NCBI RefSeq assembly: GCF_965363235.1
Contig: NC_134839.1
Location: 80,749,410-80,813,409 of the forward strand
Source: Mytilus galloprovincialis
Taxonomy: Eukaryota > Mollusca > Bivalvia > Mytilida > Mytilidae
Length of the DNA: 64,000 nt
Reading direction: 5' to 3'
In this document: positions 3,539 through 62,375 of the stretch, piece after piece
Layout of the letters: every line of letters starts with the position of its first letter
Position numbering within the stretch: the stretch's first letter is position 1
Program-made: the position numbers and the translations under genes
Notes under the pieces: model-generated
Seen by the model: only the letters and a program-made list of their open reading frames with translations
The model's database searches: none
What the model was told of the DNA's origin: nothing

Positions 3539-6500
3539 TTAAATTAATGTTGTCATTTAATAAAACCGAAGTTTTTGAATGAAAAAATGCCAAAATGAAC
3601 TTATTGCACATTTAAGGGATCATATCTATCTAAATCTCAAATATTTGAAAATTAGTTTTGCCATAATTTGTATATAAAGCTTGTCGCATGTTGTACCAGA
3701 CACGTTATTATTCTTCGGGAAAAACATACTTATCTAATTTTTAGTTAACGTAATTATGATACAGAGTTACACAAAGGTACCAGGATTATAATTTAATACG
3801 CCAGACGCGCGTTTCGTATACATAAGACTCATCAATGACGCTCAGATCAAAAAAGTTATGAAGCCAAACAAGTACAAAGTTGAAGAGCATTGATGACCCA
3901 AAATTCCAAAAAAGTTAAGCCAAATAGAGTATTATTATTTATGTGAATGTTTTTTATTTTATTTTTAGAAACCATGGTTCAAAAAATCAATAAATTGTTG
4001 GGTGGATTGGCCTGCACAGGTATTTATGAGTGTTCAGTGTAGAAAAATAACACATTGACATAGAAATCGTATGTGCATAATAAATACAAATGAAAGAGCA
4101 AAGCCAATTCCGATTTAAAACATAATTATGAATGACACGCTGAGTAATTTATTACACCATACTTCAATTTGTGACTATCTATTTACGTTTATGTTGTATT
4201 GAGCATATACATATACCAATATTATGGACAAGTTCCTAAACGATTTTCAGGACACATGTTGAAAGTAAGCAAAATAAAAAAAAAAATACATTTAAAGATT
4301 TAAAGCATCCAGCCTAGTATGCTGTTCAGACAATATATCTAGCTATGCGACATGCAGGTAATTAATAACACAAACGTCGGTGCTATATAGATACAATCTT
4401 ATTGTGATAAAAAGAGCACTATAAATCATGCATTATTTGAAGTTTTGAAGCTCTTCGTGATCTTAAAACCTTATAAAACTACAAAAAGGAGCAAAATTTT
4501 TGAGGTCGTATAATGGTATGACGTGTTCGTCATAGTCGTCGTCCGAAAAATAAAATTAATTTTGTGTTTCAGAAAGTTTAACGCTTTCCTTATTTTTAAT
4601 ATGCGTGATGTTTTTCCTTGCTACAGAAACACAAGAGCTTGGTGTATACCCCCTTTTGTAACTTTCTTTTTGTAAATATACGTTTGCATTTTAACTTATT
4701 TCGTGTCTCTAGAGTGTTCTTGTTCTTAAACAAATACCACATTATATAAGTGAAAAAAGTTTAGTTTGAAAGACTTTTTACCCCCCAAAAAATAACATAA
4801 AAATACAGAGCTCGTATAAAAAATGATAAAATCTCTGGAAATGAATGGTTTCTCTGTATACTAAATGACATATTTTCAGACTATCTGGTTGTATATTTTC
4901 AGAGTGTTTCTAACGATATATACTGGTACTATCTGATAGAGCTTGGGTTTTATCTGTCTGCTGTATATATGCTTTTTACAGATCATAAGCGTAAAGTAAG
5001 TAATCATATATTTGATTTTACCAGAAAAAAGTGAAATATTGCTCACAAAACGATAGTCGTTCTATGTCTAGCACAGGCAACATCGTATAATAGCCACTAG
5101 ATCTCTATGATGAGTTTATTGTTAAAATTGTGTCGTTTATCTGCTCCGTCATTAATGTTTATCAAACATAATTATCTGTGTATTCATTTGATAGAAACAT
5201 TAGAGATCGACAAAAGAATATTAAAAAACCGACTGTCATTTCTATGGCCAGGAAACTAGAAATTCCCCTCAGTTAAACGTTGAAGTTATTTTAGACTTAA
5301 GTTTAAAAAGAAGTATAAAGCTTAAATTAATCCACACCATGTATCAGCCAATTGATTTATTCAATTATACTACGAGTTATAATGATATTGTATATTAACG
5401 ATATTAAGTCATTTCGTTACAGCACCAAAATATAATTTAAAAGAGGGGCGAGAGATACTAGAAGGACATTCAAACTCATTAATCGAAAATAATTCGTTAT
5501 AAGACATATGACTAAAATATTTTCTTTTTTTGTAGGATTTTACTGAGTTTATTATTCATCATGTAGTTACAATATTTCTATTGGTATTGTCATTCTCATA
5601 CAACTTATTACGTGCTGGAACTTTGGTGCTATGTATACATGATCAAGTGGATTATCTCTTAGCGGTAAGAACGTTTTATAGGTGAATACCGATTTTACAG
5701 GATCGTATAGAAACATTTAATAAATCTAATTTCAGACATTATTTTTAAGTCGTATCTTTTATAAATTATATCATATATTATATATTAACGGGGACGACAT
5801 CAAAAGATCGATGTAGGATAAAAAAAAAAACTTAAATCAAATAGTTTGGGGGTGGGGTTAAAATTCTGCAAGTTTTGTATATCTAAAATGGATTTTTACA
5901 TATATCCCTATTGGTAAATCAATTTTTCCCAAATTAAGTTAAGAGGGGGTGTGGGGGTCAGTGAAAAAACTATGTGAATTAAGTTTTTTATCCTACATTG
6001 AACTTTTGATGTCGTCCCTAAACAAAATTACAAAAGATGCAAAATTTTAGATATAAAACAAAGAGCAATTGGTGAATACCGATTTTACCGAATTTGGAGA
6101 AATGAAATATGTAGGGTTTTAATTTTCTAGTAATTTGTAGTATATGACCAAGTAATACGCGAAATTCCCCTTGCTAAAAACCTTTCTCAATATTCCTCAC
6201 ACAGTTATATCATATAGATAAAACGTTAAAGATGCCCCTAATACTTCCTCTTTTCAAACGAAGCAAGCGACTACAAAAAGTACCTTTTGAAAGAAAATCG
6301 GCCATAGTCAACGACAGAGAGGAAAATATCAATGTGGTCAAGAAAACAAATACGTACTTTTAGTTGAATTTAACCTAATTTGAATCAAGCAATCTAACGT
6401 GCATACGTTTGTCTATTATTTACATCATTATTAAGCATTATGCCCTTGTCGTTATATTACAAATGATATTGAAACTATCCATCTTCAAATGTTTAAATAG

Positions 6501-9500
6501 ATGTAAAATAATCATCTTGGAGGAATAAGGGCACGAGGATTGAAGATGAGTCAGTTGGTAAATTTAACACGGTTTGCTTCCCGGATTGTGTCATTATTCA
6601 AAGACCCTTAATAGATTGAGGGAAAACAAATCCGGGCTACAAATTAAACCCGAGGGAAACACATCAACAATATAAGAAAAAGGAAAACAAAGGAAGAACA
6701 GAAACACTGAAGCGTAACAAAAATAAACAGCAATGCAACACTCATAGAAACGAACTATTTGATAACAACTGCCATATTCCCGACTTGGTACAGGACTCAT
6801 ATATATGATTTATTCTTTTGCTTAATTATTTTATATTTATTGACAATGTTTTGAAAAAAATATCCGTTTTACTGCTACAAGATAATACATTGAATAGAAA
6901 AAATGTGATCTTTTCAGATGGCAAAAATAGCTATCTACTGCAAGAAGCCATTGATAGCAGATACATTGTTTGTATTATTTATACTTGTGTGGATTATCAC
7001 TAGACTTGGTATATATCCATATGTGTGAGTATTGCAATTCTCTCTCTATATATTATATATGTATGAAATTAAGTCAATTATTTTTTTCACCTTGCGCTTC
7101 ACTATCATATTTTCTTTTATATATATAAAGACTTTATTGGTTTTATAAACGAGTAATTGCATTGCATAGAAGATTTATACGATAATGTAAAAACTCAACA
7201 AAGAAACCATGCTTATAATTTTGTACGTCAAGAAAACTCACGCATGCCACTGAATAGAAAAAGTTAAAAGGCCAAAATAAAGTACGAAGTTGAAGAGCAA
7301 TGAGGACTCAAAATTCCGAAAGATTTTGCCAAATACAGCTGAGGTCACCTAATCCAGGAAAAATAAATCTTAGTATTTCGAACACTCAAAGTTGTGATGG
7401 GCATTGGCAAAAACAAATACATTGGATTCCGAAGCAAGCAAAAAGTAAAATCACAAAAATACTGAACTCCGAGGAAAATTCAAAACGGAAAGTCCCTAAT
7501 CAAATGGCAAAATCAAATGATAATAGTTATCAAAGATACGGCTAAAGTAATATATGCCTGGGATAAGAAAAACCTACGTTTTTCGAAAAATTCAAAGTTT
7601 TGTAAACAGGAAATTTATAAAAATGACCATGTCAACACCGAAGTGTTGACAACTGGGCTGGTGATACCCTCGGGGACGAAATGTCCACCAGCAGTGGCAT
7701 CGACCCAGTGGTGTTGATAGTTATCAAAGGTACCAGAATTATAATTTAGTACGCCAGACGCGCGTTTCGTCTACATAAGACTCATCAGTGACGCACATAT
7801 CCAAATATTTATAAAACCAAACAAGTACAAAGTTGAAGAGCATTGAGGATCCAAAATTCCAAAAAGTTGTGCCAAATAGGGCTAAGGTAATCTATGCCTG
7901 GGATAAGAAAATCCTTAGTTTTTCGAGAAAAAAAACCCACATCAAACGAATGGACAACAACTGTCATATTCCTGACTCGATACAGGCATTTTCAAATGTA
8001 GAAAATGGTGAATTGAACCTGATTATATAGCGCTAAACCTCTCACTTGTGTGACAGTCGCATCAAATTCCATTATATTTACAACGATGCATGTCAAACAG
8101 ACATAATAGGTAAAATTGTCAAAATGGTTGCAAAGTTGCTTTTATAAACTGTCTTTTAGTGCTCGTATGAGTCAAAATGTAAATTAAGTTTTATATTCCT
8201 GTTTTATTCTTTAGTTAAAATTATCACGCTTTTAATACTTACAGTTGCAAAAAAATGGTGTTCATATTCAATTTTTCCATGTTAGAGGAGAGCAATATTT
8301 AGAAAAGTAAATGACAAACTGAAATAACATTGCATGATGTAGATTGATTGATATGTTACAAAACAATGGTGCATCCGTTTAACACGTTATCATTCGGCAA
8401 TGTACCAAAGAGGTAGGGCTAAATTTTCCAAGTCTTTCAAACTTCACTAAATATAAATCATAAATAGTTCGTTATTGCGTATTTAATTATGTGTATATTT
8501 ATGGGGACAATATGTTTCGTTCAGCAGTACTTTGGTTTAGGGTATTTTCACTAACTTGTTTCTAGAATTTGGCCTTAATCATCCTTAGGGTATCAAGTTT
8601 ATAAAATGTATTCGATGACCTAGCCAATCTTCCAAGATGGCCACTATTACTAAAAATAGAACATGGGGTAAAATGCAGTCTTTGGGATATATTTCTGAAA
8701 GGGGTAAAAATGTTCATCAGCTGACTACCTATCTACCCTGAATTTGGCAGATGCATCAGACAACCCGTTGTTAGGTTGCTGTCTCTTATTTGGTAATTTT
8801 AAGGAAATTTTGCAGTTTTTGGTTATTTTCTTGAATATTATAATAGATAGAAATAAACTGTCACAGCAAGACTGTTCCACAAAGTAAGCTCTACAAAAAA
8901 GTAAACATGACCAAAATTATCATTTGACCCAATAAGGAGTTATTGCCCTATAAGGTCAATTTTTCACAATTTTTCGTAAATTTTGTAAAAATTTTCTCTA
9001 AATTTACTAGGCTAAATTAAACCATACTTGGCCTAAATCATCCTTAAGTTTCAAGTTTAAAAAATGTATCCGATGACCCCGCCAATCTTAAAAGATGACC
9101 ACCATTGCTAAAAATAGAACATGGGGTAAAATGCAGTTTTGGGGATTTTATCACTGCAGGTCAATATCTATCTGCCCTGGAATTTTCAGACGCATCAGGC
9201 AACCCTTTAATGGGTTGCTGCCTCTTAATTGGTAATTTTCAGGAAGTTTTGCAGTTTTTGGTTATTATCTTGAATATTATAATAGATAAACTGTAAACAG
9301 CAAAATTGTTCAGCAAAGTAAGCTCTTCAAATAAATAAGCATAACAAAATTGTCAATTGAACCCTTTAGGAGTTATTGCACTTTTAAGTTGGCCTTTTAC
9401 AATTTTTCGTAAATTTGTTTTACAAAAATCTTCTCCTCTGAAACTACTGGACCAAATCATTATCGATAGAGGTAACTGTTAACAGCAAGAATGTTCAGTA

Positions 9501-11560
9501 GTAAGATCTACAAATAAGTAAGCATGACCAAAATTGTCAAGTGATCCCATAAAAACACAAAAACAGGGAACTTTGTCATGAATTCTATGTTTGTCCTTTG
9601 TTTAATATGCACTGCAGCACATAGACCAAGGTGAGCGACACAGGCTCTTGAGAGCCTCAAGTTTTATATCAACTTCGAAAGTAAAAAAGGGACAGTCAAA
9701 CTCATAAATCTAAAACAAACTGACAACGCCATGGCAAAAAATATAAAGGACAAACAAACAACAGCACACACGACACAACTTAGAAAACTAAAGAATAAAC
9801 AACACGAAAGATGTGGGATTTGAATTATGTTTTGAAGTATGCTTTTTGTAGTGTAAACTCTACTAAGTACTTCAGTATAATCAAAGTATGGTCACGTTAC
9901 ATTTTAAGCATAGCAACCATTGAACATACTTGGTAAATTACGTTTCCCCAGTGCTGCCAAATGAATTGTTAGTTGGTGACAGTTCAGGGTGGTTTATTGG
10001 GTGTAACTGCTTTTTCGGATCTGACTTAAACGAACTTCCTTTTTACGGATTATTTGAATTCTAATGGAGAGAGGGTTATGTTTAGCATATAAACGCTTGC
10101 AACTTCTTATTGGTTTTAGGTTTAATAAACATTGCTTATTGGATGTTTTCTCTCTCCAAATTTTAACATCTCTTTATTGCTAACCATGTAAGAATGCACA
10201 AGTAAGTAGACTTAACTTGGCCTTTTTTATGTTTTCAGGATATTATACTCGGTATATATAGATCTTCCTGTATATGCTAGAGAATTGGGACCATATGTAG
10301 AAATGTATGATACGTGTACATTAATGAAGTTTGTCAAAGGTGCTTTGTTGGTACTTCAAATTCTTCATTTAATATGGACAGGGTTAATTGTTAAAAGTGC
10401 TGCAGCTAAATTCACTGCTGGAAAGGTGAGTAAACGTGTTCTGTTCTTTGTAATATAACACAAAGTAGAAGGTACGATAAGACCAATATTTGGCTCCTGT
10501 AAAAATGGTAAATTTATGCAAGACTTTCAAAATTCTGTAACTGAATCAGAAACATACGTTCTTTTTTTTCGTATATTGAATGTGAAATAATATTACAGAC
10601 ATACCCAAATATTTGTATCAGATTTTCTTTCTGTTTGACGAGGCAAACAACTTTTAAAACAGGAAAAAAACGACATTGCCTTATCTTTCATTACTCTGGC
10701 CAGTACAAAAATATGTGTTACTGACGTTTAACTGGTAAGTGAAAAGGCTAAAAAATCAATCGTGACACACACGGAAGTGGAAATCATTCCTTTTGCAAAA
10801 ATACGGAGTAAAACTTGGTTTATCTATCATTTAAACATTCCAGTATCATTTCATAGATATCATAATTCGAATAACATTGAGGTCTTTCTGACTTCTATAA
10901 AATGTTCTGTTGATGGTTGGTCTTTTGATCAGTCTTTAAAATTCATTCACAATCAGGCTCGAGGGCAATAGTAGATCGATGCAAACTGTATCTTTAGTAA
11001 GACTTAAATGTTATTTCTTGTTTATTTGTTAAGATTGAGAATTGAAATGTGGAATATGTCAAAGAAACAACAGCCTGACCAAAGAGCAGATAACAGCCGA
11101 GGGATATCAATGGGTCTTCAATGCAGCGAGAAAATCCCACATCCAGAGGTGGGTCTCAGCTGGTCCCCAAATAAAAATGAGTACTAGTTCAGTGATAATG
11201 GACGTCATACTAAACTCTAAAACATATAAATAATTTAAAACCAAAATGAAAAAAAAACATACAAGACTAAAAAGGCTAAAGGATCCCGACTTGGGACAGG
11301 CGCAAAAATGCGGAAGGGTAAAACATGTTTTGTGAGATCTCAACCCTCCCTTATACTATATTGTATATGTTATTGTATTATTGGTTTATTTGATACAAAA
11401 GACGTAAACGCACATATATTTAATCCGTATTTGTATACCCTTACTCATTTAGATTCAAGATGCAAGAAGTGATAACGAAGAAAGTGAGATGGAAGTTGAT
11501 GACAAAATAGAGGAAAATGGCAATTGTAAAACTTTAGACACAGACGGTTTATGTCAATGA
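765..11560 (+). CDS. CerS: Ceramide synthase, copy 1 (5' end outside window)
   Basis: Makes (dihydro)ceramide by N-acylating a sphingoid base with an acyl-CoA; a multi-pass ER membrane enzyme. Coding exons are 765-871, 1357-1414, 3969-4019, 4903-4995, 5536-5664, 6918-7024, 10239-10425 and 11453-11560, all with GT-AG borders, giving 279 residues and a stop. Exon 1 here encodes the second half of the Hox-like domain (CELTEREISKWFRKRRR). The Lag1p catalytic motif spans the 5536 exon: FIIHHVVT, then IHDQVDY, with both histidines and both aspartates present. The 10239 exon carries the last membrane helix (LLVLQILHLIWTG). The C-terminal tail begins with the conserved acidic ARSDNEESE block, a known casein kinase 2 site region in the family, and ends GLCQ. 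The N-terminal helix and first half of the Hox-like domain are absent because the window starts too late. Every exon has a counterpart of the same phase in the second copy at 26608-36160. Substrate chain length cannot be told from sequence alone. Confidence 0.93.
1655..2846 (+). repeat. Tandem duplication, two units of about 596 bp
   Basis: Unit 1 (1655-2250) and unit 2 (2251-2846) start with the same word GAAAAGCATTAG and end near CTTTTGTTTTCAGA. Shared markers include ACATGCTTG, GGAAGAATAGAAAGGTCTAT and GTAAACATTTCTAT, with scattered differences. The pair sits in the intron between the 1357-1414 and 3969-4019 exons of the first ceramide synthase. Confidence 0.85.
3181..3613 (+). repeat. 193 bp tandem duplication with TA microsatellite
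   Basis: The segment starting GTAAGAAGCACCATGATTTT at 3181 recurs at 3374. The two units look almost identical apart from the TA dinucleotide tract, short in unit 1 (about 3277-3299) and roughly three times longer in unit 2 (about 3472-3537). This suggests a recent duplication followed by microsatellite expansion. The predicted small proteins here (IYIYIY runs) are artefacts of the tract. Confidence 0.9.
3773..3935 (-). repeat. Hammerhead-bearing repeat (retrozyme-like), copy 1
   Basis: On the minus strand this contains a hammerhead-like core at 3798-3841, preceded by a stretch shared with the copy near 7724-7930 (ACAAGTACAAAGTTGAAGAG, plus strand). It lies in the ceramide synthase intron just upstream of the 3969 exon. 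The core reads TTGATGA instead of CTGATGA and stem II has a mismatch, so it is probably inactive. Confidence 0.7.
3798..3841 (-). ncRNA. Hammerhead ribozyme fold, decayed core
   Basis: Stem I strands GCGTCA and TGGCGT pair over 6 bp. GAAA and the GTC cleavage triplet are kept. The invariant C of CTGATGA is T here, and one base pair of the four in stem II is lost. Confidence 0.6.
4503..4690 (+). repeat. Fragment of the TATACGACCCC-ended element
   Basis: GGTCGTATAATGGTATGACG and the following CGTCGTCCGAA match the left end of the element at 14514-15454. Only the end is recognisable; the rest fades into intron sequence. Confidence 0.45.
5438..5500 (-). repeat. Penelope-like 3' tail remnant
   Basis: AAAAGAGGGGCGAGAGATAC and the following words up to the TCGAAAATAA match the 3' tail (minus orientation) of the Penelope-like copies at 29406 and 27866. 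Tail only, no coding part, and diverged. Confidence 0.55.
5790..6019. mobile_element. MITE with about 40 bp terminal inverted repeats
   Basis: The left end GGGACGACATCAAAAGATCG with TGTAGGATAAAAAAA is mirrored at the right end as TTTTTTATCCTACATTGAAC then TTTTGATGTCGTCCC. Internal sequence is about 150 bp, AT-rich with two G-rich runs, and has no reading frame. It is inserted in the intron after exon 5536-5664 of the first ceramide synthase. No clear target duplication could be fixed by eye. Confidence 0.8.
6560..6800 (+). repeat. SINE-like repeat, partial (family B)
   Basis: The end GATAACAACTGCCATATTCC, then CGACTTGGTACAGG, matches repeats at 7941, 54645 and 62168. The left part is specific to this copy. 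Confidence 0.5.
7285..7930 (-). repeat. Hammerhead-bearing repeat, tandem partial units (retrozyme-like)
   Basis: Three pieces of one repeat unit follow each other: a first-half piece at about 7285-7390, a second-half piece at about 7541-7723 (with CCTCGGGGACGAAATGTCCA) and a first-half piece with an intact hammerhead core at about 7724-7930. The words TATGCCTGGGATAAGAAAA occur in both the second and third pieces, showing the tandem relation. Transcription on the minus strand would place the ribozyme between units, the arrangement expected of animal retrozymes. A family B fragment lies between pieces at about 7440-7515. Confidence 0.65.
7751..7794 (-). ncRNA. Hammerhead ribozyme, intact core
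   Basis: Read on the minus strand: GCGTCA (stem I), CTGATGA (core), GTCT-TATGT-AGAC (4 bp stem II), GAAA (core), C-GCGC-G (very short stem III), TC so that the cleavage triplet is GTC, then TGGCGT closing a 6 bp stem I with two G-U pairs. Every invariant core position of the hammerhead consensus is present. The very short stem III is typical of the small variants reported with Penelope-like elements and retrozymes, which are known to work best as dimers. Activity here is inferred, not seen. Confidence 0.85.
7941..8095 (+). repeat. SINE-like repeat, 3' part (family B)
   Basis: CGAATGGACAACAACTGTCA, TACAGGCATTTTCAAATGTA and CTCTCACTTGTGTGACAGTC recur at 26958-27190 and 62168-62375 (plus) and at 54645, 55995 and 59228 (minus). 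Confidence 0.65.
8560..9660 (+). repeat. Tandem repeat, about 458 bp period, two units plus partial
   Basis: TAAAAATAGAACATGGGGTA starts at 8651 and again at 9109, a 458 bp spacing, and the similarity extends over whole units (TTTTGCAGTTTTTGGTTATT, AAGTAAGCTCT, GGAGTTATTGC). A third, partial unit follows to about 9540. The block ends in the palindromic CAGGCTCTTGAGAGCCTC. It lies in the large intron between exons 6918-7024 and 10239-10425 of the first ceramide synthase. Confidence 0.8.
9676..9810 (-). repeat. Penelope-like 3' tail, 5'-truncated
   Basis: GGGACAGTCAAACTCATAAA, GACAACGCCATGGC and AACTAAAGAATAAACAACAC match the tail of the copies at 29406 and 61140. There is no coding part, as expected when reverse transcription stops early. 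Confidence 0.7.
11035..11356 (-). repeat. SINE-like repeat (family D)
   Basis: Shares ACTAGTTCAGTGATAATG, CCCGACTTGGGACAGGCGCA and GAGATCTCAACCCTCCC with the copy at 36706-37050. The part near 11060 (GTCAAAGAAACAACAGCC) corresponds to the 3' end of the tRNA-headed plus-strand element at 49500-49805. Confidence 0.75.
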
Positions 11561-29600: not shown

Positions 29601-32600
29601 TGTCACATTCATGACAGGGAAGGGGATTGTAGTTACGATGTAAGGAACATATCCGATATCATTTGTGAAACGGTTATTCCATGGTCAACCAACTCGTGAT
29701 GCCGTCCGTAAAATTTACGAAGGGATGATTTCAACTTCACCATTTGGAACTCTTGGTTTAATAGCTTCCTTGTGAGCAGCAACCCTCTATCAAGAAAATC
29801 ATGATAGGAAATGCAAGCACGGGAATATCGTATCAATTGGGAGATATATACCCCGTATGCAGGTGCTGCTGGAATTTTGCTACTTAGAAATGGAAAGTTC
29901 ACAATTGGAAAGCTGAAATCATCTCTTTTGTCGTAACGTTTTGTTTTTAACCGATCCTCATTGTCAATTTCTAGATGTAAGTCAAGATATGAGGCCGACT
30001 TAACTGTATCTGTGGTATCCTTTATCTCTAGCTCGATGGGATAGATGCGTTCCACATAGTAACCAAATTTTGATTTATTTAGTGAAAGAACATCATCTAT
30101 ATAGCGGAATATTCATTCCAACCGAGAAAAAAAATCGATGTTATTTAATAATTTGTTGTACACGTTCATAAATATCAATGAGCCAATTATCTTCTTTAAA
30201 CAAAAAAGACAGGATGCATATTAAATCATTAATACCATCGATAGTGCTGACATTAGAGGTAAATGTCTTAAACAAATAATTGAGATTGTACTTAGGTGTC
30301 TATGAGGGTTGTTTTTTTTGTTTCGGATGTTCGTACTTTTTGGATTTTTTTCAACTATACCGGTTAAATTTATCCCCAATATCGATCACTTTTCTTTTCA
30401 AAGTAGACTTCAATAGTTCAAACTATTAACTCATTACCAAAATTTAAATTCCTGCCAAGGGGGACAATTCTTCCTGTTATTGATAGTAACCGAGTAGTAC
30501 AACTTATTAAAAATGTGGTCAACAGAGGAAAGAAGGGACCAAATAGAGGTGACTGCCTCGTAATAATGAGTTCAACTCCAATACATGAGCCGGATGTCAG
30601 ATCCATGTGAAAAACTTTGATATATATATATATATACGATTATTGATAGGTCAACAATATTTGTTTTGATAATCCTCCAAAACATGCATTTGTAATGGGT
30701 GTTTTATATATATAGTTCTAATCATAGGGTCAAGTTAATTCTGAAATAATAGGTTAAATGTATTTCAACATTGAATAAGTTTGATGTAACGATCTGCTAA
30801 ACCAACAACTTGGGTTTTCTTGTTTAAATTCGAGCCCCGTCAGAATACTTAACGTTACGCAGAAATTTGATGAAAACAATAATAAGAATAATATATATCT
30901 TATTTGCATTTCAGCTGGCAATTCATATTTTACTTCATTATGTCATGGTATGGAATATATGTACTATGGGATGTAAGTACAGTTACTATTTTTGTAAATA
31001 CGTATATTGATTTACATTCATACATTATCAAAGCAAACTAAATACTAGCGGCTGATTTCATTGAAGTTGCTTTATGTTTAATAACGATAAGGAGAAACGT
31101 TTTAAGAATTACATTTTTTCTATACATTTTAATCTAAATTTAGCTTTTAGAATTTACTAACTAAATAATAATAATAAAAAAGAATTGACGAAAATAGCTT
31201 AAAATTATGGTTTGTGAAACTTTTAATTCGCCTGTTAAATTGACATTGATGATGTTATACAAGAGAAGTAAAATAATTTGGTTTTTTACTTTCAGAAGCC
31301 ATGGTTTACCAAATCCGTGCACTGTTGGACTGGTTATCCAACGCAACAGGTGAATCATTTACTTCTAATTATGAAATATATAACTTTCGTCGATGATTAA
31401 CCATTCTAAAGAAATGTTAAAAGTTCACAGATAACACTGTATTATATCAATGCGTCTTTGCGTACATTTTCCCCCTCTGCATTATTTTATTCATAGATAG
31501 TTTCTGTGTCATTTCCTAACGAGCTGTAAACATTTTGAATGATTTCAGTGGATAACAAATGTTTTTCTTTGCATTAACTACATCTGTAAGCTTTGTATAT
31601 GAACTTGTAATTGAACTTGCTGACCGTCATTGCAATAATTTTAAACTTGTGAGTGAAAATTAAAATTAAAAAAAAAAGATCTCCAAAGAAAATTCAAAAC
31701 TGAAAGTTGTTTATAAAATGGCAAAGTCAAACGCTCAAAAAAGTAAAAGAACACTATTTTCATATGTCATTGTCACAATTTTTAACAGGTAGTAAAAGAC
31801 AACTTTTTGATATATGATAATCCCATTTTAGGGTAAATGACATTTAACACATTGTTATTTTATTGTTGTAGACGGTTTCTGATGGTATATATTGGTATTA
31901 CTTGTTAGAGTTAGCATTTTACATTTCATCAATAGTCACCATATGTACAGACCATAAAAGAAAGGTAAAAATAACAACACCTGTTTTATTCAAATTGGGT
32001 ATCTAATTTTCCCATCATGACAATACTTTTTAAATGAAAAAAAACTTGTTTTGGAACTATTCTTAAGAAATGTTTGCAATTTTAAAAAAAATCTTGTGAT
32101 AAATAAAAAGAAATTAGGATAATACTTCAACGAGGAAGCATCCCAACGACAAATTATCTAGCAATCATAATTCACTTTTGCTAAATAACCTGCCAATTTT
32201 ACTTTTAATAAGCCATATAATGTCAGAAAAGATAATGATATAACATTCCAGAATAGATTTTGGTGATATGATCTTCGCTATAACGATTGATATGATATCC
32301 ACAACTTTCTTGTAAACATTTAAAAAGTTCAGTTAGTCAAATTATTTCGAATGTTCTACTAATTTATGTGGGAGCAGTGAATGCCATCTTTCACTTCAAT
32401 AGAAACGTAAATGAGCATTCATACAAGTCCTTTTTTTGGTAGGTTTGAAATGAATTTTTGAGTATTATGGCAATGCCTTCTACTTTCAGGATTTCGTTGA
32501 AATGTCTGTTCATCACATAGTAACAATACTCCTCATAGGACTATCATGGAATTATAATGCTGTAAGAGTTGGAACACTAGTAATATGCATACACGATCCT

Positions 32601-35600
32601 GTAGATTATATCTTAGCAGTAAGTATTTTGCAGATATTACTTAACCAATAATTTTAAAATTATATTTTGGTTTGTCAATCTCGTAAACTTTATTTTGTTA
32701 TGCATATGTTTTTTTGTTTGTTAGTTTTTAAGTTTGGCTATATATTGCTCATCATCGATAATGCAAAGTTACAAGAAATTGTTATGCTTTGAATAGCTCT
32801 ATAACACGTTGACGAAAATGCGGGATTGTAAATCGAAGAATCATGTTGATTTTCAAAGTTTACATTGCCAATTGATTGATATCTATTTGCTAACGTTTAA
32901 GTATCAAATAGTTCATGCAAATCGCCAAGACAAGAGTGTATTTTAAAACAATAAATCCAACAACTAGATTAACAAGGATAAAGGGTTGGAAATTAAGATT
33001 GAACAACAGTCCACCTTAGAATCCATCAACGAGTTTTAGCGGGATTCCTTCTACAAGCAGAGAGCCGCTCGGTCTCCCTGCGCGAGGCATCTGATTTACC
33101 CTCACAATGAATCAAATAAACCTTCTAAATTGGTTTCACTGCCGAGTTTTGCCAAATTCTACTGATTTACTCTTTTTGTTCTGAACTCAAATTTGCAGGT
33201 CTCACGCCAATTTTTATTGACATATATAAGAATATAATTGTACACTGATGTTTGAAAGTCTTGTTGGATTTTGAAATAAATCTTGTTTTATTTGGGTATG
33301 TGGCGTAACAATGGAAAAATTGTTGAATTTTACTGCCGTTTATTTAAATATATATATTTATAGTGGATTGGGAAACAAGTTTTTCCACTTTGCGGGTGCA
33401 AGTGCTGCCTTGTAGAGGCATTAGCCTATTATTTTTCGAAATCTACAAGGGTGTCTTTTACGTGCAAGAGATATGGCTCGCTCTTAACATGGGTCAGCCA
33501 TTTACCGTCCCCTTCCGACGGACTATCATCGTTTCATCCAGACCATACTCGCAAATGGTGTCAAGGGAGAGCCGAAAATTTTCATCCTGGAACGGGAATC
33601 GAACCAGGAACCTCCGTGTTAGTAGTCCGATGCACTAACCACTACACCAAGACTATCTAATTATTTCTGGCGTTATTATGCTTACACAGAAAACAATAGT
33701 ATTTTAAATCAAAATTAATACTGCTTTGAATAGGCACGAAACAGAGTGAGAGCTATTAACATAATCTTGTAGTGTAGTTGAAGACATTGACACACTAAAC
33801 TAGTAAGATTTACAATATTCGAGAAGTAAAAAAAAACACGCTTCTGGTTATTTGATGATTGTAAATAACATTTATAATTTGTGATTCTGTCAAAATTTCG
33901 TAATTAGTTTTATAAATAAGTACATTTATTTTTATTTACAGTTTGCAAAAATGAGTAACTACTGTAAATATATTAAAGTCTCAGATTTATGTTTTGTACT
34001 GTTTGCTGTAGTGTGGATTGCTACACGACTAATAATATATCCATACATGTAAGTATCCAACATAATAACCATTCTGAGAGTAGTACACTACTGGTTAAAA
34101 AAATCATTTTACTGGAACAAAACGCTAACCTGATCTATTATAACTGGTTATGGTGTAAACTATATAAACAATATCAAACCATTATATTCAAACATGACGA
34201 AAAAAGTGTAAAAACTCTGAAGACCATAACGCTGCAATTAAAAAAACCTATATCCGAAAAAAAAATATTCAAACTTGATCCGTACGGTAACTAGTCATCG
34301 TTAAACTATGTGCCAAATATCAAAGTAATTTCTTGAAGCAAGACCAGAAAACTGATTACTTGTGTGGATTTCTATTTCAAAGGAACATAAATTAGCACAA
34401 AATCATCAGACCGGAACAAAATTCACACTGTTTATGGTTAAACTATATGTCAAATATTAATATCTTCAAACAAGAAGAAAGAAATTTGGAAAACTTATTT
34501 GCCAAATTGACGGATTGAGGGAAAGCAGTCTTAAACTTTGAACTTGTTTGGCTTTATAACTATTTTGATATGAGCGTCACTGATGAGTCTTATGTAGACG
34601 AAAAGCGAGTCTGGCGTACTAAATTATAATCCTGGTACCTTTGTTAACTATTGATACCGTCGACAGTGGACCAAAAATCATTATCAAATGTATATTATTA
34701 ATATATCATATAGAATATACCATTAAATGAAAACAGTCAACCGTTTTTGGAGAGAAATAAAAACGAGTGTTTTAGTTCATATATTTAGATTAAATCATTT
34801 TAACATACCATATCATATAATATTGACCGTATTTTCACCGAAAAGCAATTCCTTTGAGATCATTTACTGTCTTACTATGTAATAAGTTATAACAGGCGAC
34901 ATGTACAATTAGTTTGTTTTGTTGAATTTTTGTATTCATATATTTATTAATTCCCAATGCATTTACTCTTTATAATATGACCGTATTGTATGACGTTACC
35001 GTGAACAAAAGAGAAATTCTCAAAAAAAGAATTAAAAAAAATACTTGACAATCCCTAAATGTTTTAAATTGCTAAATAGTTCATTCACATGAAGCTGACC
35101 TTTAATAATTAATCTGTTTTCTGTACATTAACCATATCAATTTTGACAAAATGATGTTAATAATATATTTGTTATCTAGGGTTTTATATTCCGTTACAAT
35201 TGAACTTCCTGAATATGCAAATAATAGTGGGCCTCATGAACAGTATTATGGAAATAGCTTTGTAATGCAGTTATTGAAAGTCATGCTGGGAGTGTTGCAA
35301 ATTCTTCATATATTTTGGTCTATACTGATAGCTAGAACAGCTGCAACAAAGTTCACTCAAGGTCAAGTAAGTATTAAACACTTCATGGTTTTTATTTGAT
35401 TTGGGATTAGGAAATATTTTGCCGCAGTCACTGAAGAGACAATTATTTTGTATAATTTGGTGCAAAAAAAAAATATCAACATAGAAATACGTAAATATGG
35501 TATGATTGCCATAAGACAACTATCCACCAACGTTCAAATGAAGTGGATGCGAGTAATTATAGACAACTGTACGGCATTCAACAATGAGAGACCTTATACC

Positions 35601-37160: not shown

Positions 37161-37379
37161 ACTAGCAGTAAACTGACATGCCAGCTCCAGACTTCAATTA
37201 AACTGACTGAAAGATTATGATTTCATCATATGAACATCAGACACAATCCTTCCCGTTATGGGTTTAGTATCATACCATCATAACATATATGAGAAGAACA
37301 TAACCCGTGTCATGCCAACAACTGGTTTTTGAATAAATGTGTTTAGTTCCGATGCAAAGACCCTATAAGTGAATCAATA

Positions 37380-37780
37380 TTAACGCCAAAATATGAGTTT
37401 TTGAGGTGAATACTGACACCTTTGTGCTTTATAAAGAACATTTCCATAAAAAATTGGATGTGAAATACCTGAACGTATAAGAAGTCTGCATGTTGAGATG
37501 TATTTACGAATGATGTCCTTATACCGATGATAAAATTTAGTAAATGTTTTAACTAGTTTGTGATATCGAAAACCCTGGTTTAATAATTTTTCAGTAATAC
37601 ATAAATTTCTCTCGTTAAAATCTAAAACATTGTTACATATACGAGCGAATCGTACAAGTTGAGATAAATAAACACCGTAAGATGGTGACAAGGGAACGTC
37701 ACCATCTAAAAATGGATAATTAACGATAGGAAATGAAAAATCATCTCTTTTATCATAAATTTTAGTATTCAGCTTAGTAT
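37380..37780 (-). pseudogene. Reverse transcriptase fragment, second Penelope-like family
   Basis: The minus-strand reading contains KIYDKRDDFSFPIVNYPF, then PSYGVYLSQLVRFARICNN, LLNQGFRYHKLVKTFTKFYH and ISHPIFYGNVLY. It aligns over its length to the C-terminal half of the copy at 29633-30055, but with many replacements, so it is a distinct family. No 5' part or tail is recognisable. Confidence 0.75.
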
Positions 37781-38229
37781 ATATATAATTTTCCTATACA
37801 AAAGTACGGGAAAATATTTGATTCCACCAAACAGTCAAAACTGTTTACTTTCAGTGTATAATTCATACACAGTAAATAGTTTTTGAACTGTTAACTGGTT
37901 GGTATTTACGGAGAACTGTTTGCTTAATCTGTATCATTGTTGCTTTTATGAATATTGTTTCTTGTTGACAAATCATGTTGTTAAACAAAACTTTAAGAAT
38001 ACACAATATAACTTGGACATACTTGTTAACCTGACGTTAACGTAAGATTATAATTAAATTTATTCACATTAAGATGTAGTATAAAACATTACAAAACATA
38101 GAATTTTTGAAATACTAAGGTTTTTCTGACTCCGGAATCGATTTCTGTAGCTGTATTTGGAAAAACATTTTCAAATACTTGTTCCTGACTGCTCTTAAAT
38201 TTCGTACATTACTTGGCCTTTCGAACTTT

Positions 38230-38320
38230 TTTTTAGATTCGAGCGTCACTGATGAGTCTTTTGAAGACAAAACGCGCGTCTAGCGCAAATACAAAATGTC
38301 AATCCTGGTATCTATATGAT
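38230..38320 (+). repeat. Hammerhead-bearing repeat, copy 4
   Basis: GAGCGTCACTGATGAGTCTT followed by ACGCGCGTC and ATCCTGGTA, a shorter and more diverged version of the 34545 copy. Confidence 0.65.
38243..38286 (+). ncRNA. Hammerhead ribozyme fold, catalytic G lost
   Basis: CTGATGA, a 4 bp stem II (GTCT-TTTGA-AGAC) and CGCGCGTC are present, but the GAAA box reads AAAA, removing the invariant G that acts as general base in hammerheads. Stem I also has a mismatch (TAGCGC). Confidence 0.6.
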
Positions 38321-40084
38321 GACTTCAATACTTCAATTGTAAAATGAAAATGAAAACTATGTTTCAAATATTTTTTATTCAAAACTTCGAATCACACTAA
38401 GATATTTTTCCATTTCAAAAAATACTTATACTAAAAATGTATACATAATATAATAAAACATACTCTGAACAACGCAGCACATTTTAATCACATGAAAATT
38501 GAAAGTCAATTTGCTTTCAAGAAAAAATGAAAAAACATACAATACGTTTTACTAAAAAAATGTACAATTTAAAGATGTAAAAGCTGAACCTAGCACCATG
38601 GTGGAGGAACACAAAGTAATTATACTTACATCCTGTATTAAATAAAAGGCTTAAATAATCATGATTGTTGATATATTATCTCCAATTCTTGTAACTTATA
38701 ATAAACACCTGGAAAAAATATCGCTCCACCCTGATTTTTACACAAATCCAAAATATATAACATATTTGCTTCTCCCTTTGCGACCTTGAGTTTCAGTATT
38801 TTTTGTTAATGCTTTAATTTCTCTCTTTCATATATAAAATAAATAATTTTGAAAATAAGAATGTTCCTATGTGCAAACATTGCGATTGAAGGTAAAAGAA
38901 TAACACATATTAATTATCGACCAAATAAAGGTTCCAAAACATTTTATAATAATGTGGATGAAATAATAGACAACATGTTAACTATCAACAAGTTATTCTG
39001 ACCGAAGATTTTAAGTAAGTCCGCATCAAGCGTGAGATACTTGTATCTATCAACAAATAAGTAATCAGCGAGCAATAGAAACGTTCTTTGAACTTATCGA
39101 AACCTGTGATCTCATTGATTCCTACGAGAATTAACCTGATATAAAAAAAAATATACAGTCAAGTGGAGAAAAAAATAGACCCCTGAAAAAGGCTAGCCTT
39201 GTTTTTTTTCAATGGGATCTCAGAGTTTCTTTTAAGAAATGCATATTAAAGAGAAAAAACATATCTAAATATGTATATATCTGATCATTCACCAATTGTT
39301 AACATTATAAAATAAGTGATTTCAATTTTGGAAAGGGTCAATTATTTTGAGTAGTTGTCTATTGTATGATTAAGTATAGATTAAAATTGTTCATGAAATA
39401 ATAACAAAACACAAGGGATGCACCTTTAACTTTAGTATATAATAGACATTCCTAGATCAAAGATTTCTTAGTTCACAATTATTAAAAATTTAAAACAACT
39501 GATCTTAGAAAATTTGTTGACAGAAATAGGAAAGTAAAATATTTCATTTGCATCCTATGAAAAAGAATGAAAAATGGAAAAGGCAAATACCCTCATAGTT
39601 GAGATGGAATTATAAAAAACACAAAGGGTTTTGAAAAACTTGTAGTTCAAAAGAAATCATAATTGCAAATTTTATGACAAGTAAAAATGCAAGGTCAAAA
39701 CGTCTTTAAATCATCAGTGGGAAATCCGCGAAATGCTTCCTTAATTTAAGAAAACTAAGAAGCTTGTTCATAAAACATTTCAAAGACTACTTAATTATAA
39801 ATGTATCTGCTTAATCAATCATATTAGCAGAACCCAAAACGTCCATAACGATTAATATTTAAGAAAGAAACAATCGAACAAATCAGACTTTATAACAAAT
39901 TTATGTATTTGGTGTCTCCAAAATCTGGGATTCCGATGAAAAATGACTTATTTTGAATTAACAGTATGTAGCCATCCAAAGAATGAAAATTAACAAAAAG
40001 TCAAAGATCAGATGAATACACAAGAGAGTTTTTTTACCACGACCTGTGCGAATATAACAAACTTCTTAAAACAAAATACTATTA
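38321..40084. other. Intergenic, no recognised feature
   Basis: Very AT-rich. No gene, no family copy found. Confidence 0.45.
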
Positions 40085-44200: not shown

Positions 44201-47200
44201 GACTCTAGATGTATCCCTTTCGGTATGATTGCTATCTCATTGACTAAAACCAACGCACTTTTATTACTATTATTAGGTAAAACCGACATTTAAATTATCT
44301 TTTCTACAGAGTTGAGATATTTGTTCTTCAAAAACTCACTGTTCAATTAATTACAAATGTTAAAAAATATTTACTAAATGGTTTTGCTATTTCTTCTATA
44401 AGCAGTTTGTCAACTCTTCTCTTCTGTGGATCAGCCAGTTGTAACAGTTGGTCAATATAAAATCCGAAAGTAATACCATGATAAGCAAAACCTGTGCCTG
44501 TTGATATATATATCGAATTTTTACTTGGGTTGTTACAAATTTTCCAATTCTCAATCATATCAATATTGTAATTCATATTATATTTGACCATTTTCAATAA
44601 CAAGAAAATATATTTTATAAGGTAAATGGAGAATAGTCATAATATATGCATCTCTCTCTTCACTGTTAAATGAAGGAAAATCCTAATAAAAATTTGTAAG
44701 GGTTCTGCGGAACCCAGTGTCTCGACTACTTATGCTGTTCATTGCAGGCTCAACAAAAAAAAACATTCAATAAAAATATTCCTCTCTATACTATTTTTTG
44801 ATAGTAAGAAGCTTCTGTCCAAGTTTTGTAATAATACATTTAAAAGAAAAATACTGAAAACAGGTATTTTATTTTAACAAAATTTACTTCTGGATAATAT
44901 CTTATGATTATAAACAAGCTCCTGTCCAAGTTTGGTAGAAATCAGGATAGTTTAAGAAAGTTCAAAAACTTAACCACAGAGTGAATATTTGTGACACCGA
45001 CGACGGAATGTAGGATCCTAATGTCTCGCTTTTTCGACTAATGTCGAAAGCTCGACAAAAATGAATAATGAGATTGAAGCAAATCTGTAGGTTAAACTGA
45101 ATTCAAAGAACAATTACAATATAAAAATACAAACTTGCATCTAGATATTACATGTTTTCATAGAAGATATATTTTTTTTATTTTTGTCCACTCTTACCTG
45201 GCGGCCATTTTGGACGTTCATTCCCTAGTGTTTTTCTTAACATTTCTGGATCCGATACCACATCGTTTAAAGTTAATTTTTCATCCATGTAAGAAAGTCC
45301 AGCCTATAAACATTCAAATACAATAATTTATTTTTCAAAGTTAAAAGTGGAACAAATCTCTAAAAATATCCAAACTTAAAAGTATAAATGACTAAAATAT
45401 TTCTATACAACGTTTAAGCTATTGTAGAAACAATTAATTAGCTATCGGAGATTCAACATCCTTGATCTGATGCCCTATCACTGTTGTCTCATGACTTTTA
45501 AATTAATTTAGATTGGTTCAATCGCCTCCGTTGCACCAACAATCAAAGAAAACACTGGCCATTGCTGACATGAAACACTTGATCTGGAAATCTGAGGAAT
45601 AATGTTTAAACAGATAATATTTCCAATGTCTAAATACTAGTGTAGAATGATATTTGAATGTTTGTACCCTTACAGATCTTCGGCGTCTTTTAGGCTCACA
45701 AACAGATCTTCATACAGGTTCTCATAGACTCCACGTCTGATTCATACAACCCTTAGATACATTGGATACATTGCCACGTCCTTGAACATTGCTACATCGA
45801 GAGTAGCAGTTCAGGTGAGGTTCCCGAAAACAATATCTGGACAATATAAGGTCTGTCCAATCACCTACTTGATTCCATATTTGTATATTATCAGGCAAAT
45901 TTCAAACATGTCTTCTCAAAAAGAATTAAATACATGTCTCTTTATCCTTAACATTACGTCCGAGTAATTCAGTTTCACATAAACTTTGAAGTTCGGATTT
46001 GGTTGCTGACAGAGAAGATATTAACAGAAGAAGGATAAAAAAAAAAAGCATTTGGTAGACATAAGACAACATTTGTATAGAATATTTTAGTTCTCTGAAT
46101 ATCCAGTATGTGATGATCAGTCATTCCTCTTGTTTGACCTTCCAAAGGAATTTAAACAGACCTGTGATTTTCAAGATATTGTTTTTGATGACAAAATATT
46201 TGTTATGGGGTATGTAGTGGTTTAAGAAAATTTGAGTGAATAGATTTTAGTTCCAAGTTGTATCAATGAACTCTCAGATTTTACCCATCTTCTTTTTTTT
46301 CTCATTTCGTCCATTCATGATAGAATATATTTAAATTCCAAGTAGTGTTTCAATGTAATTGATTTAGGCTCGTGCCTAAAAGATTTCATTTAAAATTGCA
46401 ATATTATATACTTATACGGTGGCCATTCGAGTGAATTGTGAACTTGTGCTGGAGTACTCAGACCAAGGTGGGTGACAAAGGCTCTTTAAAACCTGTGTTT
46501 GTTTTTGTTAAACAAAAATGCATCAGTAATGGTAAGTTTTATGCATTAGAGATGATTGTTGCAGAATTGGTTTTTTTTTACATAAGAAGGAATTTCAGTC
46601 ATGATCAATTAAATGACAACGTATTTGTTACGTTCGGAGGACCGTGTTTTTCAACAGACTGTCGGGATTCCAATGGGAACCAATTGTGCCCCTCTTCTTG
46701 CCGACTTGTTTCTTTATTATCATGAGGCTGACTTCATACAGGAACTTCTTGGGAAGAAAGATAAGAAGTTATCAATATCCTTTAACTCTACTTTCCGCTA
46801 TTTAGATGACAAAAATTCAAAATTTGGTGACTGAACGCAACTATCACATCGAACTGGAGATAAAGGATACAACAGATACAGTTAAGTCGACCTCATATCT
46901 TGAATTACATCTAGAAATTGACAATGAGGGTCGGTTGAAAGCAAAACTTTACGACAAAAGAGATGATTTCAGCTTTCTAATTATGAACTTTCCATTTCTA
47001 AGTAGCAACATTCCAGCAGCACCTGCATACGGGGTATATATCTCCCAATTGAAACGATATTCCCGTGCTTGCATTTCCTATCATGATTTTCTTGATAGAG
47101 GGTTGCTGCTCACAAGGAAGCTATTAAACCAAGAGTTCCAAATGGTGAAGTTGAAATCATCCCTTCGTAAATTTTACGGACGCCATCACGAGTTGGTTGA

Positions 47201-50200
47201 CCGTTATGGAATAACCGTTTCACAAATGATATCGGATATATTCCTTACGTCGTAACTACAATCCCCTTCAATTCATGAACGTGACCTACCGAATTATACT
47301 ATATACAGGATTTATTATAACATAAGCAACACGACGGGTGCCACATGTGGAGCAGGATCTACTTACCCTTCCGGAGCACCTGAGATCACCCTTAGTTTTT
47401 TTGTGGGGTTCGTGTTCTTTAGTTTTCTATGTTGTGTCATGTGTTCTATTGTTTGTCTCTTTGTCTTCTTTCATTTTTAGCCAGGCGTTGTCAGTTTATT
47501 TTCGATTTATGAGTTTGACTGTCCCTCTGGTATCTGTCGTCCCTCTTTTAAAAGGTCCCTCATTGCCTGAATCAATGTCTTCTGGACCACTCTGGCAATA
47601 GAAAGATTTAGAATTGAGCTTTTATATTTGTTAGTCATTTTTCTTTCATAGATTGTAGTGTTTAATAATTCTGACGTCTTGGAATGCTTGTGTGTAATTA
47701 TTTTAGTGTTTGATGTGAAGCCTTCTTACGATCAATGACGGATCTATAACTGTTAAAATTGAAATTCTATCAGCAAACGACATGTTTATCTAGACACCAT
47801 GACTTACAAAACAGTGAAATGTAGAGGAAACAATCCTTACCTGATGACTTAACAACATCTCTACTGTAACATTCTGTTTACCGTTAGACTCAAACCCAGG
47901 CCAGTAATGTGATACTAGTTCTCTGTAATCTAAATGTCCTCTGAAAACGAAACATTCTGCATAAATGAGATCATTAATGTAACACATTCAGAGAAAATGA
48001 CTACTTGTTAATATTTTTCTCCATACAGTAAATCGAAAATAAATATACAACACAATTTTAAAGCTTTTTTTAAAATGAAAGATTTCGGGGTGCGATTTTT
48101 CGTATACTTTGATCTTCAGTTATCTAATCTTGTGTCAGTATAACTGGCTGCCTTCTTTTTCAGTGGAACACGTCTATGTTATTTTCTTATGAATTTGAAA
48201 TCACTGTGAAAACTGAACTTTGATGCTTGGTGCTTTTGAACACTTACTTGTCTACAAGTTTGGCTGCAAGTATGGCTGCTACTCCTTTTGTGGTGGAAAA
48301 CAACGTGGCTAGTGTATCGTTTTTCCATCTCTGGTGAGAATCTCTGTCAGCATAGCCTCCCCACAAATCTATCACCAACTCTCCTTTATAATATACAGCG
48401 AAGTTGCCTCCTTTCTCTTTATGATTTTCAACTTGATTCCTGCAGTATAAACATGTTAAAATTAACAAATCAAAATAAAAAAAATCAATTCTGTTTCTTA
48501 CAGAAAGTAAACTTTACTTTTAAACGTCGGTGATGCTTTTGTTCGATTTAAGTTTATTAGATTTCACTCTTTGTTTTTGTTAGATGAATTTCTATTTGTA
48601 TCCATCTAATGAGTTCAGCCTTTTCCAACTGCTTTTTATAGTTCGTTCTTATGTTGTACTGTTACACCACTGTCCGATGTTAGAGGAGGGTTGGGATCCC
48701 GCTAACATGTTTCATCCCGCCTCATTCTGTATGTATGTACCTGCTCCAAGTCAGAAGCCCGTAATTCAATGGTTGCCGTTTGTTGCTGTGTTACATTTTT
48801 GTTTTTCGTTCATTTTTGTACATTACTGTGTGCAGTGATTTGACAAGACAAAACGTTTACATCGAACCAAGTGAATAGAACTGTAGAGTTCGATCAGAAT
48901 TCATATTTGTTTAGTAACTTTTCAACTATGAAAGGGTCAAATATCTACATTTTCCTGACCTTATGATTGAAGATTTATTGCCTCAGTGTTTGTTTGTTGT
49001 TGTGATTTGTTTCTTATAAAACGATTTATGAGATATGTACATGGGTAAATGATTGTCGTCTTAATTCATATAAATCAATAAAAAAGAAATTGCATGTTAT
49101 CAACAATTCGACAGGGACCATAAAAACTAGTTTGTCATATAAGAAAATGTTAAGTCCCTTAGTATAAATGATATATTTTATCACTAGATTTCCTGTTACA
49201 ATGATTATGCAGTAAAACGGAATGAAATCACTACTATATGCCATTGTTCCGTAGACGGGTTTCGAGAAATTCATTGTGAAATAAATATTTTTCACCGTCT
49301 TCTGCATTCATTCTATACATTCATAGATCTATATTTTAAATTGATAGTATCTCTGAAAGTGCTGAAAATATCATTGTTTCGATATTCAGATGCAGTTCAG
49401 CGACAACCACTTTACATTGTGTTGTGTAAGAACCCTAGATAAAGCCAATGAGGAAAGACATTACGTAGTACGTGCTCGACTTAAGAAAGCTTAAATTTAT
49501 AAAGCCTAGTTGGTGGAGTGGTCTAGGGCGATGGAAACAGCACAGGGGGTGTAACCACCATGTCACAATAGCAGGGGTCAAAATCCATTTAGAAATTTAG
49601 TTCTTTTTAATGTTTTGGAATTTAGTATGACGTCTATCTTCACTGAATTATTACACACTTTTATTTAAGGCCCAGCTGAGCCCACCTCCGAGTGCAAAAT
49701 GTTCTCGCTGCATTTAATACTCATTGGCGGCCTTCGTTTGTTATCTGCTTTTTGGTCGAATTGTTGTCTCTTTGACCTTTTCACAATTTCGATTCTCAAT
49801 TTTCTTAACGATAATTTGCAGATTTAACATTGTTATGATTGTAGGTATAAATTTGAGATGAAGTTCAAGTATATATAAATTATGGTGGTAGCTTTATATA
49901 AACAAGGGTAATCCGATGGGGAAAGACTGTTGAAAGTTTTCTTATGTTTAAACGTAACTACATCTTTCTGTCTGACTTATATACGAACAATTTTAATCGC
50001 TAACTTTCAGCAAACTGAGCAGCGGAAGTAATATATAGCCGAATGCATCCCTCTCGTAATGTATGGTTCATTAAATTAATTAACCGGAAAATGATGGTAG
50101 GTCAGATGAACTTTGTCATGAACTCATAGCTTCGATAATATGAGTAATAAGTCAATTGTATTTGGAACTAATTGGACCTCACATGACAGCTCATGGGACG

Positions 50201-59227: not shown

Positions 59228-59440
59228 TATCATCCAAGTGAGAGGTTTTGCTAGCTAAAAAAAAACAGGTTTAAACTCCTGTTTTTGTTTTTAAAAAGAC
59301 AATGCTTGTACCAAGTTAGTAGCATAACAGTTGTTTTCCGTTCGTTTGATGTGTTTGAGATTTAAATTTGCCATTTGATAGATGACTTTCGTTTCTTCAA
59401 TTTTCCTTGGAGTTCGGTATTTTTGTTATTTTACTTGTTC
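59228..59440 (-). repeat. SINE-like repeat (family B)
   Basis: AAGTGAGAGGTTTTGCTAGC, TTGTACCAAGTTAGTAGCAT and CCGTTCGTTTGATGTGTTTG. Confidence 0.65.
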
Positions 59441-62090: not shown

Positions 62091-62167
62091 TGTATTACAT
62101 TAAGTAGAAAAACAATCCCGTAGATACCTTTATGAACTAAGTGAATTGTAAAAAGTAAAATAACAGA

Positions 62168-62375
62168 AATAGCGAAGTCCGAGGAAAATTCATAATGGAA
62201 AGTCCCTATTAAAATGGCACCATCAAAAGTTCAAACACATCAAACGAATGGACAACTGTCACACTCCTGGTCGGCACAGGCATTCTCCCATGTAGAATAT
62301 GGTGGATAAAATCTGGTTTAACAGCCAGCTAAACCTCTCACTTTTATGGCAGTTGCATAAAAATTCCTTTATATT
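62168..62375 (+). repeat. SINE-like repeat (family B)
   Basis: CGAAGTCCGAGGAAAATTCA, AACACATCAAACGAATGGAC and CCAGCTAAACCTCTCACTTT. It sits less than 100 bp after the Penelope-like tail. Confidence 0.7.

Follow-up and report, generated by a model that had tools for sequence, protein, structure and literature searches.

A hammerhead-like motif lies on the minus strand within an intron of a gene of Mytilus galloprovincialis that we take to encode a ceramide synthase, raising the question of whether the motif serves its host locus or belongs to a mobile element and, in the latter case, how that element is copied. The window referred to below is the whole stretch of 64,000 nucleotides of DNA analysed around it.

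The hammerhead motif and its family

The initial annotation had claimed that all invariant core elements of a hammerhead stand in order on the minus strand, that stem III is minimal, and that the motif lies inside a dispersed repeat. The motif is the following:

7751–7794, minus strand: type I hammerhead ribozyme with intact core (Rfam RF00163, 33.0 bits, E = 2.4e-4)

Each element was located. CTGATGA, stem II, GAAA, GTC and stem I follow one another with none missing; stem II is GUCU/AGAC (4 bp, loop UAUGU) and stem I is GCGUCA/UGGCGU (6 bp, including two G-U pairs). Stem III is minimal as described, ACGCGCGU forming 2 bp with a 4-nt loop within one molecule or, alternatively, an 8-nt palindrome that pairs two molecules. 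All three helices can be formed in this way, and cleavage is expected between 7757 and 7756. The covariance search that had been proposed as a check supported the motif over the whole 64-kb window, though its score is 1 bit short of the gathering score of 34, which is a curation cut-off and not a chemical criterion. Three copies from one locus (L010) of the family to which the motif belongs, family 1 below, likewise scored 33.0 bits, and two copies of a second family (L078) scored 32.5 bits, so the shortfall is a family trait arising from the minimal stem III and not decay of the window copy. The minimum free energy fold of the isolated 44-mer differs from the hammerhead (z = +0.85), which is weak evidence against it. 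A score below the gathering threshold might also point to a chance match, but the exact core pattern occurs 16,560 times (8177 + 8383) in the genome searched (1.38 Gb, 331 contigs), a lower bound on intact cores, while the reversed pattern occurs 0 times, making coincidence hardly credible. Judged by sequence, 7751–7794 on the minus strand was confirmed as a genuine type I hammerhead motif, of an already known kind.

The dispersed nature of the repeat was borne out as well: 18 of 50 retrieved loci contain the identical 44-mer, a few of them coming from one array or duplication. Tandem units occur in two families, spaced mostly 353–358 bp apart in family 1 and 363–366 bp in family 2. Real units are 356 bp long in family 1 (GC 0.38, longest stop-free frame 86 aa) and 363 bp in family 2 (GC 0.36, 48 aa), and both families show the features of metazoan retrozyme units, namely a length of about 300–400 bp, no coding capacity, GC under 45% and a type I hammerhead. 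When one real unit from each family is compared with the other, 43 of 44 hammerhead positions are identical, against 252 of 312 in the rest of the unit (p = 0.0024). Two further observations concern copies on contig C1. At C1:56126972-56133756, 20 exact tail matches at 354-bp spacing mark a long retrozyme array, apparently recent. Three hammerhead copies about 6.2 kb apart (C1:2395892, 2402107 and 2408320), identical over the stretch shown, are a tandem duplication of genomic DNA carrying a retrozyme; a 114-aa frame inside this duplication presumably resembles a LINE endonuclease.

By its sequence, the window hammerhead appears to fit the ~350-bp mussel retrozymes already described by Cervera and de la Pena (2020). 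The parts of that paper (PMC7229834) used here report two ribozyme families with 350–390-bp repeats in Mytilus galloprovincialis, circular RNA in mussel tissues, demonstrated self-cleavage and a kobs of about 0.1/min for one mussel retrozyme. Our elements resemble these in their type I hammerhead, two similar families, unit length, thousands of copies, low GC and lack of coding capacity, a likeness drawn from the published description and not letter by letter. The same parts give about 5000 copies, against at least 16,560 intact cores here, and mention target-site duplications in animal retrozymes, longer than 4 bp 'when present', whereas none stands out in our loci.

The window copy and its host intron

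The repeat that carries the hammerhead, its surroundings and the flanking exons are as follows:

7523–7924, minus strand: retrozyme copy carrying the window hammerhead (aligned by BLAST with an actual L010 unit; the ends of its two tails are 7717 and 7523)
7717–7756, minus strand: first-unit tail, beginning at the cleavage site and ending in ...CTTTGATAACTAT
7523–7540, minus strand: 3' end of the insertion, with the same tail end, beyond the deletion
7440–7517, no strand assigned: left flank, part of another dispersed repeat, the target of the window copy
6915–7025, plus strand: ceramide synthase-like exon 5' of the intron (tblastn to the paralogue exon at 33939)
10237–10452, plus strand: ceramide synthase-like exon 3' of the intron (tblastn to the paralogue exon at 35178)

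The copy begins near unit position 188 and is thus 5'-truncated, yet it is longer than one unit. It contains one full hammerhead, after which a second unit continues to position ~236 and is interrupted by a gap of ~147 nt; this internal deletion removed the second hammerhead, and the copy finishes at the canonical 3' tail, 7523. Most insertions of the family end close to the point marked by the last base (7717) of the CTTTGATAACTAT tail in the first unit. The repeat that was the target resumes at 7938–8000, and other copies of it lie near 54733–54854, 59298–59439 and 62150–62294. Comparison by eye with four other copies of this host repeat suggests that the insertion cost a few target bases and produced no duplication.

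The initial annotation had envisaged self-cleavage when two units are joined. Elsewhere in the family, tandem units each bearing a hammerhead form arrays of 2 to 20, but the window copy has lost its second hammerhead, so neither a circle nor a unit can be released from it. Going by the motif that is left, an antisense transcript through the copy could be cut at most once, without release of a unit. The copy, a product of more than one unit, looks like a fossil that can no longer move.

The plus strand of the window carries two paralogues in tandem, each with a PF03798 (TRAM_LAG1_CLN8) domain; we assume both to be ceramide synthases. In the first, PF03798 matches at 5533–5760 (plus strand), and its exons, placed by match to the second paralogue, are 4903–5001, 5536–5670, 6915–7025 and 10237–10452. 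The antisense placement claimed earlier therefore stands, with plus-strand exons on both sides of a minus-strand hammerhead. This placement and the intact core are what a host role would call for, with the intronic hammerhead cleaving antisense RNA from the ceramide synthase locus. However, the core recurs 16,560 times in the genome, 18 of the 50 loci sampled contain the identical 44-mer, the second unit of the window copy is itself partly deleted, and no mark of selective retention was seen on this copy, making such a role very improbable.

The window holds four additional retrozyme copies, every one with an altered hammerhead:

3772–3927, minus strand: older copy with a mutated first core base (TTGATGA; 24.2 bits)
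7186–7393, minus strand: older family-2-like copy, hammerhead decayed (unit alignment)
34529–34651, plus strand: short 5'-truncated copy with tail end GGTACCTTTGTTAACTAT, core kept, stem III changed
38109–38331, plus strand: family-2-like copy with AAAA in place of GAAA (27.1 bits to RF00008)

A shared 3' end and a proposed copying cycle

Insertion anatomy was examined at the first 30 places listed on C1 and at 20 hand-picked from places 31–100, with evident arrays omitted. Because they belonged to the same array or to a tandem duplication, six of the first 30 were excluded ahead of the count, leaving 44 loci (36 of family 1 and 8 of family 2). In family 1, 28 of 36 copies end soon after the hammerhead, 23 of these 28 at 39–47 nt past the cleavage site; the exceptions end at 20 (L020), 32 (L024), 26 (L084), 31 (L089) and 0 nt (L096). 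The remaining eight (L009, L013, L014, L018, L021, L022, L097 and L099) run on into further units, L097 and L099 reaching the edge of the locus. Five of the eight family-2 copies end 44–56 nt past cleavage and L086, measured in the same way, at 39 nt; the last two, L027 and L091, either continue further or are cut. Arrays of both families behave alike: judged by eye, 13 of 14 distinct arrays, which came from 20 loci and are not an unbiased draw since 11 lie outside the sample (7 best BLAST matches, 3 hand-picked places and 1 next to a GIY-YIG match), stop at the tail or a few nucleotides from it, and only L079 runs on past it. Genome-wide, the 45-mer ending at the tail has 3182 exact copies (controls, 0); 937 (29%) remain when the next 14 nt into the unit are added and 2113 (66%) when the preceding 14 nt upstream are added. 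The 5' ends of sampled copies are scattered across the unit. Linear cut templates should give an excess of 5' ends at the cleavage site; no such excess was seen in the sample, where only L081 starts exactly there.

Most sampled copies therefore share a fixed 3' end while their 5' ends vary, copying crossed the junction, and single copies and arrays end at the same point. Since the shared 3' end lies downstream of the cut site, the template must have been joined across that site, either as a circle or as an uncleaved multimer; likewise, because arrays and single copies have a common end, both seem to result from a single start followed by copying over a variable length. Against a joined template stand L081, which starts at the cleavage site, and L096, which ends there, as cut linear RNA would give. 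L096 (C1:6566490-6567120) is a fold-back: its retrozyme sequence stops precisely at the cleavage position and passes into a retrozyme piece in inverted orientation, as though a cut RNA end had served as template.

The reading we consider probable places the window's type I hammerhead in a degraded copy of a non-coding retrozyme of ~355 bp, an element moved by an RNA cycle. In this cycle, a tandem copy would be transcribed, the hammerheads would presumably cut the RNA into units, and the cut units would be circularised. A reverse transcriptase (RT) supplied by another element would then start at a fixed site ~40 nt past the cut-and-joined junction and read back through the hammerhead. A variable stop would yield 5'-truncated fragments, and going round more than once would yield head-to-tail arrays. 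We infer that the template was a circle rather than an uncleaved multimer, although the two predict nearly identical DNA, and that the enzyme came from another element.

The arrays might instead be ordinary satellite DNA expanded by unequal crossing over, with the hammerhead as a passenger. Near-identical head-to-tail units, including one array of 20, would suit this explanation, and long arrays such as the 20-unit C1 array may indeed grow by recombination. Satellite amplification does not account for scattered single copies, 5'-truncated and mostly with a common 3' end, for the ending of 13 of 14 arrays at the same point as the single copies, or for a hammerhead conserved above the rest of the unit between the two families, and we regard it as unlikely.

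Target-site duplications were sought at 33 of the 44 loci, the other 11 being run-on, cut or fold-back. The longest flank match averaged 5.06, against 4.69 for mismatched pairs, so no duplication rose above control in these 33 loci. Matches of at least 7 nt numbered 4 where 1.72 were expected, possibly a weak duplication signal. The flank composition of retrozyme loci is close to that of the window.

SINEs are short, non-coding and 5'-truncated and have a fixed 3' end, as do the ~355-bp retrozymes. The ~355-bp class differs from them in carrying a hammerhead, in forming tandem arrays with one fixed end and in lacking a detectable target-site duplication. Plant LTR retrozymes likewise have a hammerhead, a circular RNA intermediate and a non-autonomous lifestyle, according to the parts used here of a 2020 review (PMC7761336), but they have LTRs, a PBS, a PPT and type III hammerheads, whereas the mussel unit is ~355 bp long with a type I hammerhead. 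The same parts of the review state that animal retrozyme repeats contain no conserved motif from which an autonomous partner could be deduced. A common 3' end ~40 nt past the cut is a feature of this sort, from which a priming site on the circle can be predicted. The insertion anatomy, with a fixed 3' end marking the start of copying into DNA, may be the new part of this analysis. In the main text of PMC7229834 the words 'truncat', 'boundar', 'SINE' and 'inverted' are absent, the parts of that paper used here hold no description of a fixed 3' end, and none was reported in the titles and abstract openings of the open-licence papers searched. The window motif is one more copy in a known family; it is the mover of animal retrozymes that could matter.

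Candidate partners and a second, ~1.07-kb class

An abundant RT element of the window ends in GGTATCTTTCGTCCCTCTTTTAA, resembling the retrozyme tail. As a partner it was rejected, a local-alignment null of 600 random stretches giving fractions of 0.105 and 0.35. The element adjoins retrozymes at L017 and L026, and L034 is an insertion inside it without duplication (by eye); these chimeras were too few to count. Its fragments lie at 29633–30112 (minus strand, with a YIDD box), 46806–47255 (plus) and 61315–61791 (plus) and have a common 3' end. Four RT fragments gave no Pfam match at E 0.01, two of them none at E 10, and one compared with the PDB matched only two dehaloperoxidase chains (E ~0.9). 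We assume that they may be Naiad-type Penelope-like elements. SECIS-like matches were seen at 37227–37291 of the window (minus strand, 27.1 bits) and at 2901–2965 of L010 (28.8 bits), against a gathering score of 35. The first lies downstream of a degenerate RT frame (37380–37793) and the second near a relative of that frame, so a selenoprotein RT element is possible; a selenocysteine reading of the fragment at 37380 was rejected, its frame also holding TAA and TAG.

The published candidate for moving the ~355-bp retrozymes is the Penelope-like elements, as proposed by Cervera and de la Pena in the parts of PMC7229834 used here. Both kinds of element carry a type I hammerhead near a 3' end, and Penelope-like elements are characterised by reverse transcription that begins internally, the enzyme starting at two such sites and extending both target strands according to the parts used here of Frangieh et al. 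2024 (PMC11167929). Penelope-like elements were collected by a GIY-YIG search (147 matches from 150 candidates scored of 1001), and 30 loci and three larger stretches were inspected. Copies of family A have one of two ends, each followed by (TA)n, and include several inverted pairs; (TA)n also follows the end in family C at two of the three loci looked at (L051 and L065, not L064) and in family E (L077, L048 and L072). In contrast, none of 33 retrozyme loci tested has a (TA)n 3' junction or opens its 3' flank with (TA)4, and none of 43 retrozyme loci with flank has an inverted copy abutting the 5' end (in L096 the inverted copy abuts the 3' end). Among the first 100 listed C1 places, with clusters defined within 2.5 kb, 2 of 16 retrozyme multi-copy clusters are of mixed orientation, both plus-minus with tails inward. 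No RT or GIY-YIG frame, nor any long frame, was found in the ~355-bp unit.

A single locus joins the two kinds of element. L076 (C11:45820800-45825600) is an inverted family-A-like pair with arms 96.5% identical over 452 nt, and in both arms the (TA)n is followed by a family-2-like piece with a hammerhead remnant and tail, ending there or within a few nucleotides; the two arms end in different flanks. This join favours a Penelope-like mover, and a chimeric template or 3' transduction are possible readings of it. However, the hammerhead core of L076 is changed and unlisted by Rfam, and the same type of join was absent from the other loci among 40 candidates scored of 2347. We consider a Penelope-like mover of the ~355-bp class possible but doubtful. 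Of the kinship with Penelope-like elements and animal retrozymes proposed in the initial annotation, the retrozyme part stood, since the ~355-bp unit fits, while the Penelope part found no support in this class, which as sampled lacks the RT/GIY-YIG frame, the (TA)n junction and tail-out inverted copies.

Such copies characterise a second class of tandem unit. L045 contains a frame of 387 aa that includes a YIDD box and GIY-YIG, together with its own minimal hammerhead, identified by motif and unlisted by Rfam up to E 10. A tandem unit of ~1.07 kb (1074 bp in L101, longest stop-free frame 83 aa) has 249 nt in common with L045 at 89.6%, including an identical 33-nt hammerhead stretch, and tblastn of this unit against the L045 frames gave no match at E up to 1. 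Judged by eye, a long 3' end falls ~164 nt past cleavage in the plus copy of L045 and at nearly the same place in the minus copies of L101 and L102 and the plus copy of L103, and a short one ~56 nt past cleavage in the minus copy of L045 and ~60 nt in that of L103. One apparent fixed Penelope-like end, suggested by most matches ending at query position 289, was discarded as a product of construction, the query past 289 being flank.

The tail of the ~1.07-kb class (a 48-mer) has 64 exact genome copies in 34 clusters, 14 of them multi-copy. Thirteen of these 14 are mixed, all with minus first and then plus, so that tails face outward, the opposite of the order in the two mixed ~355-bp clusters (13/14 vs 2/16 mixed, Fisher p = 2e-5). 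Two classes of hammerhead tandem element thus seem to exist, one of ~1.07 kb linked to a Penelope-like element and one of ~355 bp, the window's own, for which such a link is doubtful. To the joint reading that the two are mechanistically distinct we give about an even chance. The ~355-bp class would arise by reverse transcription of RNA circles from one fixed start past the ligation junction on one target strand. The ~1.07-kb class would be an ORF-less retrozyme-like parasite of a Penelope-like element, with the same hammerhead and the same two 3' ends; priming on both target strands, with arms going several times round the RNA, would produce inverted arrays with tails outward. If this is true, genomic junctions alone identify the mover of an animal retrozyme for the ~1.07-kb class and speak against the published Penelope candidate for the ~355-bp class. 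The ~1.07-kb element would form a matched pair of Penelope-like element and hammerhead-bearing passenger; a Penelope-tailed tandem hammerhead element was unreported in the titles and abstract openings of the open-licence literature searched. The tail variant of the L045 type has seven exact copies, including two minus-plus pairs on C2.
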